The position numbers and the translations under genes were made by a program. A stretch of 64,000 nucleotides of DNA, taken from contig NZ_SJPI01000002.1 of NCBI RefSeq assembly GCF_007859865.1, positions 186,001 to 250,000 of the forward strand, read 5' to 3'. Source of the stretch: Rubripirellula amarantea (GTDB taxonomy: Bacteria > Planctomycetota > Planctomycetia > Pirellulales > Pirellulaceae). The stretch's first letter is position 1; every line of letters starts with the position of its first letter. The notes below the pieces were generated by a model. The model was not told the origin of the DNA. It saw nothing but the letters and a program-made list of their open reading frames with translations, and ran no database searches. Of the stretch, positions 18,244-48,303 are shown piece after piece.

Positions 18244-18472
18244 GGTGGTCGTGGCGCTAGCGTGGCAAATAGGAAGGCGAGGACGGTCAATCACGAACGC
18301 GTGATTGTAGAGCGCAGCGGCCAATCGCCGTAGGCCGGCTAATCTGAGAAGCCACGCCGGGGCCGTTGGTTCGCGCGGAGCCAAAACGGTTCACGCTGAA
18401 CCAAAAGTAGCTCGTATCGCCCGAAACGAACAATCCGTGCCAAACTCGTTCGTGCGAGATTTCGCGGTACCC

Positions 18473-18580
18473 ATGACACTCGCGGTAGCCATGACGTTCG
18501 CCGTGCCTATGAAGTTCACCGTGCCCATGAAGTTCACCGTGCCCATGACGTTCACCGTGCCCATGACGTTCACCGTGCCC
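18473..18580. repeat. 18-bp minisatellite, 6 units
   Basis: Six head-to-tail 18-bp units starting at 18473, 18491, 18509, 18527, 18545 and 18563, consensus ATGACGTTCACCGTGCCC. Units 5 and 6 are identical and the array decays toward ileS. The period is a multiple of three, so both strands stay open in one frame (His/Gly-rich on minus, MTFTVP on plus), but neither has gene-like surroundings. Confidence 0.95.
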
Positions 18581-18725
18581 GGCCCTCGCAACCAGCGAGC
18601 TCAACCCAGGGGGCGTCGAAGCAAGCCAGCCCGCCCAGTGGTCACAACCGCCAGGGCCGCGGGCGCTTAGATGCTGGCTACTAGATGTTGGCTACGAAAC
18701 TGTCGCGGCCAAGAGCTTTTCAAAC

Positions 18726-19941: not shown

Positions 19942-20706
19942 TCAAAACCGTCGCGTACCAACATCCTCATTTCCCAAATGAGCTCGGCCAATCAGCAAGG
20001 CCGCACCCGCACCGGCGACAAATCCGCCGATATGGGCCCACCATGCTACTCCGCCAGCCTGTCCAGAGGCGGAAGCCGAGATGCCATTGTACGTTTGCAG
20101 CACGAACCAAATGCCTAGAAAGACCGGTGCGGGCAAAACAAATACCTGAATCAAGATTGGAATCGGCAGGATGGCTTTGACTTTGGCATGCGGGTAAAGC
20201 CAAGCATAGGCACCCATCACCCCCGCGATTGCTCCGCTGGCACCGATGGTCGGGACGACGCTATTCATGTTGGTGTAGAAATGCGTCAAGCCGGCCGCGA
20301 TGCCGGTGGCTAAGTACACGACCGCGTAACCGATGTGTCCCAGCCGATCTTCGACGTTGTCGCCAAAGATATATAAGAACCACATGTTGCCTAGAAAGTG
20401 CATCCACCCGCCGTGCAAGAACATACAGGTCAACACGGTTAACCAAGGTGCCACGGCCGAAGGTGCAATCGTCTTAGTGGCGATCTGCCGTTCAAGGCCT
20501 CGGTTGGTCTGCACGATGACTTCTTGCTGAATGACCGTGGGCGCGTCTTCGTTAGACAACCGCACCGGCACCATCCCGTATTGTTCGGCAATCGATCCGG
20601 TGGGATCCGACAGTTGAAACAGGAACGCGACCGAGCAAATTGCGATCACGGCATAATTGACAAACGGAGTGCGGCGACTCGGGATGCTGTCTTGAAGCGG
20701 AATCAT
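19942..20706 (-). CDS. Rhomboid-family intramembrane serine protease
   Basis: A 254-residue polytopic membrane protein with about six TM helices. The catalytic serine is in GASGAIAG (Ser at about 169-170), the catalytic His in WWAHIGGFVAGAG in the last TM, and the family-typical HGGWMHFLGNMWFLYIFGDNVE occupies the L1/TM2 part. It should cleave TM substrates within the inner membrane. A roughly 40-residue periplasmic insert (RLSNEDAPTVIQQEVIVQTNR) lies between TM1 and TM2. It may be cotranscribed with the kinase downstream (77-bp gap). Confidence 0.93.
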   Translation of the reverse strand: MIPLQDSIPSRRTPFVNYAVIAICSVAFLFQLSDPTGSIAEQYGMVPVRLSNEDAPTVIQQEVIVQTNRGLERQIATKTIAPSAVAPWLTVLTCMFLHGGWMHFLGNMWFLYIFGDNVEDRLGHIGYAVVYLATGIAAGLTHFYTNMNSVVPTIGASGAIAGVMGAYAWLYPHAKVKAILPIPILIQVFVLPAPVFLGIWFVLQTYNGISASASGQAGGVAWWAHIGGFVAGAGAALLIGRAHLGNEDVGTRRF

Positions 20707-20880
20707 AGAGGACGTGCGCGCGAAGTATTGAGTGAGAGCGAATCGGAATCACTTAATGAGTGAAACTCTCGCGACGCATCGTACACGGCTTTGGGGCAAC
20801 CGTGTGACGTCGTGCAAGTCACAAGCTCTGAAAAGGAAGCTTTCAAAACGATGTCCAATCCGGCGAACCGAAACCCCGCG

Positions 20881-20958
20881 AAGAGCCGGCGAACCGCAAT
20901 CAAAGGAAGAGCCGGCGAACTGCAATCAAGGGAAGTGCGGGCAAACCGCGATCAGGCG
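20881..20958. repeat. 26-bp tandem repeat, 3 units
   Basis: Three consecutive units at 20881-20906, 20907-20932 and 20933-20958, sharing a core GCCGGCGAAC-GCAATCA; the third is degenerate and a further partial copy begins near 20859. Confidence 0.85.
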
Positions 20959-21013
20959 AAGAGGGTGCGGCGATTGGCGAATGAGTCAGCCAGCGATCAA
21001 ACTGTGGGCGCAT

Positions 21014-21047
21014 AAAAAAAGTCGGGTCAGCGTCCTGCGTTCCCGAC
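21014..21047 (-). terminator. Strong intrinsic terminator, minus strand
   Basis: Read on the minus strand: GTCGGG, an inner CAG-GACG-CTG mini-stem, CCCGAC, then seven T residues (A-run at 21014-21020 on plus). This is the only hairpin with a long T-run I found in the window. Confidence 0.8.
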
Positions 21048-21330
21048 AATTCGTTATTGCCAAGCGACTGGCTCAATCTCTCTCCTGATATTGAGTCAAT
21101 CGCCCGACGTACCGGCTGCTAAGCAATCGGCACGATGAAGCAAAAAACAGGCGGCGAGTCCATTCGCTCAGGTCCTAAGACCTGTTGCTCGATCCTCGAG
21201 CGCACCGATGTAAAAATAAGTCATCGCAATCTTTGCGAGTCTCCGCGAACCATCGAATCATTCGAGTGGTCCTTGGTTTGATGAGGACATCGCAATGTCC
21301 GTCGCAAATTGGAAGTCGCGTTCCAATTTG
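21014..21330 (-). ncRNA. Candidate structured noncoding RNA ending in intrinsic terminator
   Basis: Within about 310 bp there are at least seven local stems followed, on the minus strand, by a classic terminator. Perfect stems: 21305-21330 (10 bp, 6-nt loop), 21285-21300 (6 bp, 4-nt loop), 21224-21238 (6 bp, 3-nt loop), 21187-21201 (6 bp, 3-nt loop), 21169-21184 (6 bp, 4-nt loop). Imperfect stems: 21249-21270 (8 bp, one bulge) and 21064-21103 (14 positions, one wobble, one mismatch). No upstream coding gene on this strand exists for more than 900 bp, so the terminator should belong to a noncoding transcript or a leader. I do not see tmRNA, RNase P, 6S or SRP signatures. The 5' end is unknown and could lie as far up as 21630 or beyond. 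Confidence 0.55.
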
Positions 21331-21534
21331 ATTGTGAATCGTTAAGAGCTTGAAATCTGGTTCAATAGATCGATGACTTAACATCAGCGATCATGACAAC
21401 TGATCAGAGAACAAGGTGGCCAACCGATGGTGATGAAGAGTCGTTGACGAGCCGTTCATCGTTTGAGTTGGCAAAGTGAGTCACCGAAGCGTTCGGTAAG
21501 ACACCGCGAGCAGGCTGAGTGAATCAGCTTGACG

Positions 21535-21627
21535 TCATAGCGGCGGAGAGTCTGACGGATGGTTGATGGGGTTGATCTGAGGGTTTCCGATTCGAACATG
21601 AAACGCAGTTGAATTCGGATAACTCAT
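21535..21627 (-). CDS. Possible 30-residue small protein or leader peptide
   Basis: ATG at 21627 with GGAG nine bases upstream, 30 sense codons, TGA at 21535-21537. The product begins MSYPNSTAFHVRIGNPQINP and ends SPPL; Pro/Asn/Ile-rich with no TM segment. It lies upstream of the hairpin region on the same strand, so it could be a leader peptide of that transcript. Only the start context supports it. Confidence 0.2.
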   Translation of the reverse strand: MSYPNSTAFHVRIGNPQINPINHPSDSPPL

Positions 21628-22249
21628 AGCAAACTTCTCCGTCGAAAAAAAATGCAACTCGCTGCCGTTGGTGAACAGCAACCATTGCTTCAATGAGGCT
21701 GCAAGAATTTGGCGTTGCCGCCTGCGAATGTCAACAACAATCTTGGTGAAGAAAGTAAATTCAATTTCAGCAATTCATCGAAAGCTAACGAATCGCGATG
21801 TGATAGATCAGAAAAAAATGTTTGCGTTGTTTGGGCATCGACATTCACGCCATTGCTGCGGCACATTCACGTGAAAACGTCAACCCCGAGAACGAATGAA
21901 TTTTGCTTTCTTTGCGTTAAGAAATACAAGGCTTCGTCTCGCAACAATGCACGGTGCTATCAACTTAATTCGCGTACGCGGACTTTCACTTGTCGATCGC
22001 TCATCGTCGACCGCTCATCGACGTTAAGCCATCAACGTTCAATCATCGCTATTTGCTCAACGCCTTCCACTCAATGCCCTTCACTCATCACATGTGCAGC
22101 GGTGCGACCAGCGTTCGTGGTTCCAGCGTTGATCATCGCTTGCTGCGTCGATCGCTAGCTTAGTCTTCATCAAGGGGGCTGATATGAGTCGTGCCAGTGA
22201 GTAATGCCGTTACGGGCCGACTCTGACGCAGCGATGCTGCTTTGGTAGA

Positions 22250-23128
22250 ATGCCGCTGTGCTGTTCTTTTCGCAGTTCGTCCTCATCGCGGTTCGCCACT
22301 CTCTGGCAAAGGGTTTCTATCATCAACACTCACGATCCCAGACGCTTATGGAGCGATTCGTACGTCGATGAAATGAACGCGTTGCTGGGTGCCGATGCTT
22401 GTCGTCAATTAGCAATCTACAAGCTTCCTGAGGGCTTCTGCCTGAGCGTGATCGTGCCCGTTTATAACGAGTGCAAAACAATCGCCAGCGTTGTTGAGGT
22501 CCTGCGACAAACGGGACTGCCCATGCAAATCATCTTAGTCGATGATGGCAGTAGTGATGGAACCGGTGATGCTGTAGATCAGTTTGATAACGAGCCGGAT
22601 GTTGTGGTCCGCCACCACGCCGTTAATCAAGGCAAGGGCGCAGCGATTCAAACGGGAGTCCGAGTGGCGACGGGCGACGTGATCGTTATTCAGGACGCAG
22701 ACCGCGAGTACGATCCTTCGGACTTTCGATTCCTCTTGCAGCCTATCCTTAGCGGAGAAGCCGATGTGGCTTACGGGACTCGTTACGGGCATTGCGACCG
22801 ATCGTTGTCGCCCTGGTGGCACCAAGCGGTCAACAACTTCATCACGTTGCTTTCGAGTTTGGCGATTGGGATCCGTTTGAGTGATGTCGAGACGTGCTAC
22901 AAGATGACGCGACGCGCGCATTTTATGGCGATCTTGGACGACCTTAAGGAGTCTCGGTTTGGTATCGAAATCGAATTGACAGCACGATGGGTACGGGCCG
23001 GTTTGGAGTTTACCGAGCGACCCATTCGCTACCATCATCGTTGGTACGACGAGGGGAAAAAAATCGGCTGGCGCGATGGCGTCAGTGCGCTGCGTTGTAT
23101 CGCAAAGTACGGACTGCTGAAGCGGTAA
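22250..23128 (+). CDS. Family 2 glycosyltransferase (dolichol-P-mannose synthase-like)
   Basis: GT-A-fold enzyme that transfers a sugar from a nucleotide donor, probably to a polyprenyl phosphate or cell-surface acceptor. The N-terminal part SVIVPVYNECKTIASVVEVL, the nucleotide-binding VDDGSSDGT, NQGKGAAIQTGVRVATG and the DXD-like IQDADREYDPSDF are all present, followed by AYGTRY and a conserved EIELTARWVRAG / ERPIRYHHRWYDEGKKIGW end. There are no TM helices at the C-terminus. Start: ATG 22250 gives 292 aa; ATG 22373 is a reasonable alternative because the first 13 residues are low-complexity Ser/Arg. Confidence 0.88.
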   Translation: MPLCCSFRSSSSSRFATLWQRVSIINTHDPRRLWSDSYVDEMNALLGADACRQLAIYKLPEGFCLSVIVPVYNECKTIASVVEVLRQTGLPMQIILVDDGSSDGTGDAVDQFDNEPDVVVRHHAVNQGKGAAIQTGVRVATGDVIVIQDADREYDPSDFRFLLQPILSGEADVAYGTRYGHCDRSLSPWWHQAVNNFITLLSSLAIGIRLSDVETCYKMTRRAHFMAILDDLKESRFGIEIELTARWVRAGLEFTERPIRYHHRWYDEGKKIGWRDGVSALRCIAKYGLLKR

Positions 23129-47525: not shown

Positions 47526-48303
47526 CCGATGCACGGCCCGGTTTGGTGCCTTCGTAGATCGTCGCCACGCCGAAGGTCAGCGGAGTAAACTTCACGTTGG
47601 TTAACCCTGCCATCGTCATCCGATCGGCCAGCTCTTTTCCGTCCTGGAACAAACCGACGGACTTGGGCAGGTACTCGTAGGCGGACTTATCATTGCGAGC
47701 CATCATCTGTCCCACTCGCGGAAGGATGCTGGTGAAATAGAACCCGTACAATTGTCTGAGCCCGATCAGCGTAGGGCGAGAAAACTCCAGCACCATCACT
47801 TGCCCGCCCGGTGCGCACACGCGAGTCATTTCGCGTAACCCTTGGTCGGTATCGGCAACGTTCCGAAGTCCAAACGCGACGGTGACACAGCCGAACTTAT
47901 CGCTGGGAAACGGCAACGCCTGGGAATCAGCCTCGATGAACTCGACTTCATTGGTCGGGTCGTCGGGCTTCCGTTTTGTGCGAGCGATTTCAAGCATCGC
48001 GTCGCAAAAGTCGCTGCCAACAACCTCGATCCCCGGGCCCGCCTTGCGAGCCATCGCGAGAGCTAGGTCGCCGGTGCCCGTGCAAACGTCGAGCAATGGT
48101 TTGCCTGGAATCAATCGCAACCGTTTGATGGCCTGAGATCGCCAGTACTTATCGATATTCAGCGACAGCAGGTGATTCATCAAATCGTAGCGGGGAGCGA
48201 TTTGACGAAACATCTCTTGAACCCGCGAGTTGCTTTTATCAAGCGTCGTTTCGGGAGCAGGCGCAGCCGGCGAGGTCGCGGAAGTGGAGGTCATGGCGGT
48301 CAA
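47518..48303 (-). CDS. ubiE: Demethylmenaquinone/ubiquinone C-methyltransferase UbiE/MenG
   Basis: SAM-dependent methyltransferase for the last step of menaquinone or the C-methylation of ubiquinone. 261 residues. The signature [24 protein letters not shown] is at 32-55, the SAM loop [15 protein letters not shown] near 70-84, and the [19 protein letters not shown] motif near 142-160, ending [14 protein letters not shown]. Together with ubiX downstream it suggests a quinone-related unit; planctomycetes generally use menaquinone, so the product name menG may fit better. Confidence 0.94.

Follow-up and report, generated by a model that had tools for sequence, protein, structure and literature searches.

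What is a dense array of hairpins doing in a stretch of a planctomycete genome that was read as free of genes? The question was raised by a sequence-only reading of 64,000 nucleotides of Rubripirellula amarantea DNA (this whole stretch is the window in what follows). It had claimed seven local stems at 21014-21330, five of them perfect and ending in a strong minus-strand terminator, in a gene-free region, and had deduced a noncoding transcript or long leader. As judged by comparison with relatives, the cluster forms the 3′ half of a gene for a conserved RNA of Pirellulales, the transcription of which is inferred.

The hairpin cluster, its inferred transcript and its neighbours

The density of stems was borne out. 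Within 21014-21330 the minus strand has six perfect stems that do not overlap, each 6 bp or longer and with a loop of 3-12 nt, and the terminator adds a seventh. Dinucleotide shuffles gave 0.68 such stems (sd 0.78) and six were reached in none of 1000, while none of 401 overlapping 317-nt tiles of the window had more than five. Relative to shuffles, the minus strand of the region folds 5.1 sd lower and the plus strand 4.9 sd lower, so the strand cannot be told from folding energy. As claimed, the terminator has a 6-bp GC stem and seven T (21047-21014). Gene-free holds in substance, if not to the letter: up to the divergent glycosyltransferase gene there is no minus-strand protein gene of ordinary size, but ORFs of at least 60 codons exist. 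A 69-codon ORF on the same strand overlies the hairpins (21384-21175); it was rejected as a gene and taken as chance, because a tblastn search of the flanks of 43 relatives gave no counterpart (best E 0.28). The features of the locus are as follows.

19942-20706, minus strand: downstream neighbour, rhomboid-family protein (PF01694)
21014-21047, minus strand: terminator GTCGGG[AACGCAGGACGCTGA]CCCGAC plus seven T, GGA in the 15-nt loop
21014-21698, minus strand: inferred transcript of about 685 nt, from the conserved promoter and the terminal hairpin, without RNA data
21072-21095, minus strand: hairpin CTCAAT[ATCAGGAGAGAG]ATTGAG, GGA in the loop, one of the six perfect stems, conservation not shown
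21224-21238, 21285-21300 and 21305-21330 (10 bp), minus strand: three further perfect stems, conservation not shown
21535-21627, minus strand: small ORF of 30 codons, MSYPNSTAFHVRIGNPQINPINHPSDSPPL, with Shine-Dalgarno ACGGAG at 21642-21637
21645-21681, minus strand: hairpin (stem 21681-21659) followed by eight T, from the terminator scan, between the inferred start, which it closely follows, and the small ORF
21706-21737, minus strand: promoter TTGTTGACA - 17 nt - CAAATT, with −35 TTGACA at 21734-21729 and −10-like CAAATT at 21711-21706
22340-23128, plus strand: divergent neighbour, glycosyltransferase family 2 (PF00535), ORF open from 22250

When 60 genomes were searched with the whole intergenic region at the DNA level, the only match besides the window itself was 40 nt long, and this match is the promoter region. 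A 40-nt match to G012 has 87.5% identity (E 2e-8). Clear counterparts of the locus were reached through the gene order glycosyltransferase - intergenic region - rhomboid. Glycosyltransferase homologues at E <= 1e-60 were present in 106 of 149 family genomes, and the rhomboid gene is next after the RNA also in G012, G001, G013, G154 and G081. In relatives the promoter reads TTGTTGACA, a spacer and then CAMATT. This pattern was found in 26 of 44 flanks (25 after G072 was dropped), and the window contains one exact copy of it. In the 18 best of 30 glycosyltransferase loci, the window included, it stands upstream of the glycosyltransferase gene in divergent orientation, and so it does in L060, which was later dropped; such a divergent promoter is a criterion of the new core family described below, and the window fulfils it. 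The transcript start was placed 7 nt after the −10-like box.

At the other end, a final hairpin with a U-run was assigned in all 25 promoter-bearing RNAs, in 20 by script and in five by hand, with GGA in the loop in some of them and not in all. In the window's clade a second hairpin with a U-run follows the core, and by eye this is also so in L163, L169 and L174. A consensus terminator scan restricted to loops of at most 8 nt did not report the terminator at 21014, and its sites were no more than expected by chance (3 versus 2.0). The hairpin with eight T at 21645-21681 is possibly an early terminator or attenuator. Among the stems in 21014-21330, counterparts in relatives were seen for the core stems (21150-21206) and for the terminator only. 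The idea of a minus-strand noncoding transcript or long leader is thus supported by the promoter, by a core with compensatory changes and by a terminal hairpin kept in relatives, transcription itself being inferred, and it can be refined: the transcript probably also carries the small ORF.

Two repeat regions near the locus were noted by eye. Imperfect direct repeats of about 25 nt (gccggcgaac.gcaatcaa.ggaag) lie on the plus strand at 20870-20960, between the rhomboid gene and the terminator, and a short tandem repeat region on the minus strand at 18391-18604, between two genes, gives ORFs with repeats such as MGTVNVMGTVNFMGTVNF.

The conserved core and its distribution

Before the terminator, the relatives share a core of 70 nt in which two hairpins, P2 and P3, and a small third one, P4, stand inside a closing stem P1. 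It was recognised by pattern in 23 of the 25 promoter-bearing RNAs, and by eye in the remaining two, G021 and the window. The window's own copy, all on the minus strand, consists of the following parts.

21150-21206, minus strand: core domain, P1 (21206-21203 with 21153-21150) enclosing P2, P3 and P4
21187-21201, minus strand: P2, GCTCGA[GGA]TCGAGC, the first GGA loop; one of the six perfect stems
21169-21184, minus strand: P3, CAGGTC[TTAG]GACCTG; one of the six perfect stems
21154-21167, minus strand: P4, GCGA[ATGGAC]TCGC, the second GGA loop, an ANGGAN hexaloop
21142-21147, minus strand: U-run after P1, as in relatives

Three alignments bear on the helices. In the unfitted one (A2), made with MAFFT from 19 cores without the window, 95.1% of cells were paired and both-side changes were seen in 10 of 14 pairs; its helices were drawn by the analyst on the same sequences. 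Four of the 23 pattern-recognised cores were left out of A2 (G171, G118, G187 and G032), and the window and G021 had no core matching the regular expression. An alignment of 49 cores gave 95.8% paired and 13 of 14 pairs changed on both sides. In A4, with 50 members picked for spread over the order, 95.8% of 691 cells were paired and both-side changes occurred in 13 of 14 pairs (134 cells); none of 500 shuffles was as high, and slid versions were 41-66% paired. Having been fitted to the model, the 49- and 50-member alignments are biased in its favour, and the shuffle values overstate certainty because the sequences are related. Mutual information computed on A4 without supplying the helices placed all eight of the strongest covarying column pairs within them. 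The compensatory changes in homologous intergenic regions that the earlier reading had named as a check were found. In P3, all five pairs change on both sides among relatives. The three pairs of P4, whose loop mostly has six or seven bases, stand in 47, 44 and 27 of 49 members (L069 was left out); the first two exceed the shuffles, about 1% of which were as high, and the third does not.

All 50 cores carry GGA in the P2 loop and in P4; complete invariance is confined to the columns of the P2 GGA and to that of the first G in the P4 GGA. The count of 50 is partly selected, because the covariance-model search favours sequences with GGA at these places; the window and G021, which were found by synteny, both have the two GGAs. 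The P2 loop often continues as GGANCGA. An A two bases before the GGA is present in only 38 of 50 members in P2 and 28 of 50 in P4. The U-run after P1 is kept in relatives. One idea, judged by eye, was a mimic of the 16S 3′ end or anti-Shine-Dalgarno (P1′ CUCCC with the U-run); it was given up because of the covariation of P1, to GGAAG/CUUCC and GAGGG/CCCUC, and to GGUG/CGCC in the window.

The distribution was followed with three successive models. R1 found the core in 27 of 99 relatives, including 19 of 21 other genomes of the genus, with a second, contig-edge fragment in G011 alone. R2 found it in 122 of 297 Pirellulales genomes (48 of 123 genera), once in each of the 122. In a sample of 292 genomes of the phylum, R3 found it in three, all of them Pirellulales. 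Absences are soft because the search filters were strict, and the window's own genome is among the misses. Among named genomes, where 44 of 80 glycosyltransferase loci were used, the core is present at 34 of 36 planctomycete loci (L186-L221, missing in L190 and L213), the carriers including Rhodopirellula baltica, R. europaea, R. sallentina, Stieleria and Rubripirellula. It also occurs in one further planctomycete (L229), and no core was found at the glycosyltransferase loci L230 (planctomycete), L231, L232, L234, L236, L238 and L241. Twenty distant loci (L160-L179) were fetched from the 122 R2 hits, 18 from other families and two from the window's family. All 20 have FolK downstream, on the strand of the RNA, with a match that begins 78 to 801 nt after the core start, and in two the glycosyltransferase was found within the fetched stretch. 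FolK follows the RNA in seven of the 49 loci of the first set. The folK arrangement of the distant members was not seen at the window.

The window has the promoter, the ORF and the terminator, with a divergent core. R1, R2 and R3 place this core at 21141-21206 with 8.4, 13.0 and 12.5 bits, where it ranks 6th of 7, 4th of 11 and 3rd of 10 matches in the window, behind unrelated places. Within the transcript (21014-21760) it is the best place for R3 (E 0.0054), and over the whole window its E is 0.47. Both GGA hairpins stand at the expected place. Folded in isolation, the core forms P1-P4 (-25.9 kcal/mol); the minimum-energy structure of the full-length RNA retains P2 and P3 and lacks P1 and P4. 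Membership of the window would then rest on synteny, promoter and architecture more than on score, and we consider it highly probable that the window is a divergent member. An R2 search of the whole genome listed one place only, on another contig (14.9 bits, E 8.2), and did not list the 13.0 bits of the window; we therefore see no convincing second copy in this genome. The best R1-R3 match in the window, at 47906-47981 on the plus strand (16.9 bits, E 0.045 with R3), scores above the core and was taken as chance.

Neither a repeat family nor a standard housekeeping RNA had been suspected from the letters alone, and this agrees with our searches. The Rfam search that had been proposed as a second check gave nothing for the RNA at gathering score, the sole hit being a tRNA elsewhere in L171, and at up to E 10 the stretch 20700-22350 gave five chance-level matches, none of them CsrB, CsrC or Rsm. 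A tRNA and tmRNA scan of the window found none. RNase P (RF00010) and tmRNA (RF00023) are absent from the window and were found elsewhere in the genome, while 6S RNA (RF00013) was found in neither. In the openly accessible literature on small or structured RNAs, CsrA and folK in Planctomycetes and Rhodopirellula we recognised no paper on the core RNA, and nothing there joined 'Pirellulales' with 'noncoding RNA'. We have little doubt that this order-wide structured RNA family is real and new. On the comparative evidence, it is a single-copy structured RNA gene, orthologous across Pirellulales, with its conservation demonstrated and its transcription inferred.

The small ORF and the GGA loops

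The small ORF had gone unmentioned in the earlier reading, and relatives have one at the same place. Downstream of the promoter, 23 of the 25 RNAs have a short ORF with a Shine-Dalgarno, often ACGGAG, and 29 of 37 members with the TTGTTGACA-type promoter have an ORF at a similar place. The starts were picked by hand and lie mostly 100-157 nt downstream of the base that opens the promoter pattern. Lengths are nearly constant inside subgroups (25 aa in 7 of 8, 42 in 3 of 3, 28 in 3 of 3, 37 in 3 of 3, 43 in 2 of 2; one further pair has 32 and 29 aa). Among codons with a single change, 104 were synonymous against 64.7 expected and 145 were nonsynonymous, a weak synonymous excess from overlapping, non-independent pairs, those involving G013 or G015 being left out. 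With the window peptide as tblastn query, only two matches fell on homologous ORFs: the best match overall, in frame on the ORF of G098 (E 0.073), and one on that of G130 (E 2.5). No Pfam match was obtained for the peptide. These comparisons give weak support to selection on the small peptide, or on its being translated. The ACGGAG Shine-Dalgarno may itself be a CsrA site.

The core shape suggests binding of CsrA, a translational regulator that recognises GGA in hairpin loops. The available part of PMC7652899 gives RUACARGGAUGU as the CsrA SELEX consensus, and in many Rubripirellula-type members P4 reads ACAYGGAYGU, which is near it. According to an excerpt of PMC4005645, RsmE prefers, and binds with highest affinity, an ANGGAX hexaloop on a stem; P4 of the window is GCGA[AUGGAC]UCGC. 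In 24 clade RNAs (G118 was left out of the 25) we counted 55 hairpins with a stem of 4 bp or longer and GGA within a 3-8 nt loop, where 20.1 (sd 4.4) were expected. The excess lies on both sides of the core (27 versus 9.9 on the 5′ side, 18 versus 4.8 on the 3′ side) and is absent from the antisense strand (19 versus 17.9), from downstream sequence (18 versus 22.3) and from glycosyltransferase genes (23 versus 25.0; strands mixed, minus-strand matches not turned). Sixteen representatives gave 39 versus 13.6. The window alone has 3 versus 0.94, reached by 7% of shuffles, and with longer stems and loops 3 versus 0.50 (1% of shuffles). Among the 64 triplets in this test, GGA ranked first in one run and second in a repeat. 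In the 330 nt 5′ of the core of the 20 distant members there was no excess (15 versus 13.2), so only two GGA sites are evident there, few for a sponge. In whole-RNA minimum-energy folds, GGA was not more unpaired than other triplets (56 of 281 versus 18.8%). The ANGGA count (108 versus 50) is not among our main evidence: much of it comes from the two core sites, and no excess of unpaired GGA was seen.

CsrA was found in all 149 family genomes searched, in 3 to 18 copies (7 in the window's genome), and its presence therefore does not discriminate. A copy read from the window's genome has L4 and R44, residues of CsrA named in the accessible text of PMC7652899. FliW, a protein antagonist of CsrA, was found in 52 of 60 family genomes, including that of the window. 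Its presence speaks against a CsrB-type RNA, because FliW is reported, in the portion of PMC4894983 at hand, to be anti-correlated with the CsrB/C sRNAs.

Competing readings and known systems

We favour the reading that the RNA is a CsrA-binding, sponge-like platform, which we hold to be somewhat better than an even bet, with no binding or expression data behind it. The core would display two GGA trinucleotides in loops of hairpins held within a closing stem, and one CsrA dimer could clamp both. In the Rubripirellula/Rhodopirellula/Stieleria clade the extra GGA hairpins would bind more dimers, so that the RNA may draw CsrA away from mRNAs; alternatively, CsrA might control how the small ORF is translated and how stable the RNA is. 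Comparison has established that the family exists, where its promoter lies, which helices it forms, that its GGAs are fixed and that GGA loops are in strand-specific excess in the window's clade; transcription, CsrA binding, titration and the direction of regulation are all inferred.

The same core could instead be a structured RNA that offers its two GGA loops to some other partner, be it a protein, a ligand or a tertiary contact, the likeness to CsrA sites being accidental. We regard this as unlikely but not negligible. It would account for a GGA that is fixed without the A two bases upstream, for a P2 loop that often extends to GGANCGA, beyond what CsrA needs, for the U-run kept after P1 and for distant members with the two core sites only. 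It does not sit well with the GGA loops that, in the window's clade, are enriched outside the core on this strand only, nor with the closeness of the clade's P4 loop to the SELEX consensus, and the most divergent copy, that of the window, keeps little except the hairpins and both GGAs.

The constant FolK neighbour of the distant loci (all 20 of those chosen from 122 hits) and of seven first-set loci, together with a P1 and U-run that resemble a terminator, would fit a cis-acting leader or attenuator of a downstream gene, originally folK, in which the core hairpin and U-run form a regulated terminator. We find this improbable: the RNA persists where no FolK is seen beside it, in 42 of 49 first-set stretches (111 to 2517 nt downstream), the window has a rhomboid gene and not folK, a second hairpin with a U-run follows the core in clade members and in L163, L169 and L174 (these three by eye), and Rfam gave no riboswitch match. 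We give slightly less credit still to the idea that the transcript is above all a small-protein mRNA (23-54 residues) whose long 3′ part is structured. In its favour are the similar spacing of Shine-Dalgarno and start from the promoter, the nearly constant lengths within subgroups, the synonymous excess with its non-independent pairs and the matches on G098 and G130. Against it, the amino-acid sequence is hardly conserved between subgroups and has no Pfam match, 8 of the 37 members that have this type of promoter yielded no ORF, and none was recognised in an unsystematic inspection by eye of L160-L179, where the core is kept.

The CsrA-binding reading can be stated more specifically, and then only tentatively, at rather less than even chances: the RNA may be an order-wide, single-copy CsrA-titrating RNA outside Proteobacteria, a closed four-helix platform for one dimer, in bacteria that have FliW and up to 18 csrA genes, with the extension in the Rubripirellula/Rhodopirellula clade forming a multi-site sponge with a small peptide. 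The known CsrA antagonist in FliW-bearing bacteria is a protein, and the CsrA regulon outside Gammaproteobacteria is described as poorly known in the section of PMC4894983 that was available. With two fixed GGA loops in genomes that carry 3 to 18 csrA genes, the conserved RNA allows the idea that CsrA is under RNA control in planctomycetes to be tested directly. Independently of what it binds, the core represents a well-supported RNA family that lacks an Rfam 15 match and can be annotated across the order.

Among described RNAs, the Rhodopirellula-1 motif (Weinberg 2010) is listed for Proteobacteria and Planctomycetes in PMC2864571; the row consulted in that paper carries no Rfam number, and identity with the core RNA is neither shown nor excluded. 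CsrB and CsrC (RF00018, RF00084) and RsmX, RsmY and RsmZ resemble the window RNA, the transcription of which is inferred, in being free-standing with their own promoter and terminator, in their GGA loops and in having CsrA in the host. They differ from it in belonging to another phylum, and no Rfam match was obtained at gathering score. E. coli CsrB has 22 GGA (PMC7652899, as far as accessible), whereas only two GGA hairpins, placed within a closing stem, are universal in the Pirellulales RNA; many GGA loops are a mark of the CsrB/CsrC/Rsm type, and in the Pirellulales RNA such loops are enriched in the window's clade but not outside the core in distant members. Unlike these RNAs, that of the window's clade carries a small ORF. 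The leader of the Campylobacter flaA mRNA belongs to a flagellin mRNA, whereas the Pirellulales RNA has no large gene in its transcript. This leader has two GGA stem-loops able to titrate CsrA, in a translated RNA of a FliW-bearing bacterium (PMC4894983, consulted in part), and as far as that source goes the Pirellulales RNA would be like it, with two GGA stem-loops, a FliW-bearing host and, in the window's clade, a small ORF that may be translated.
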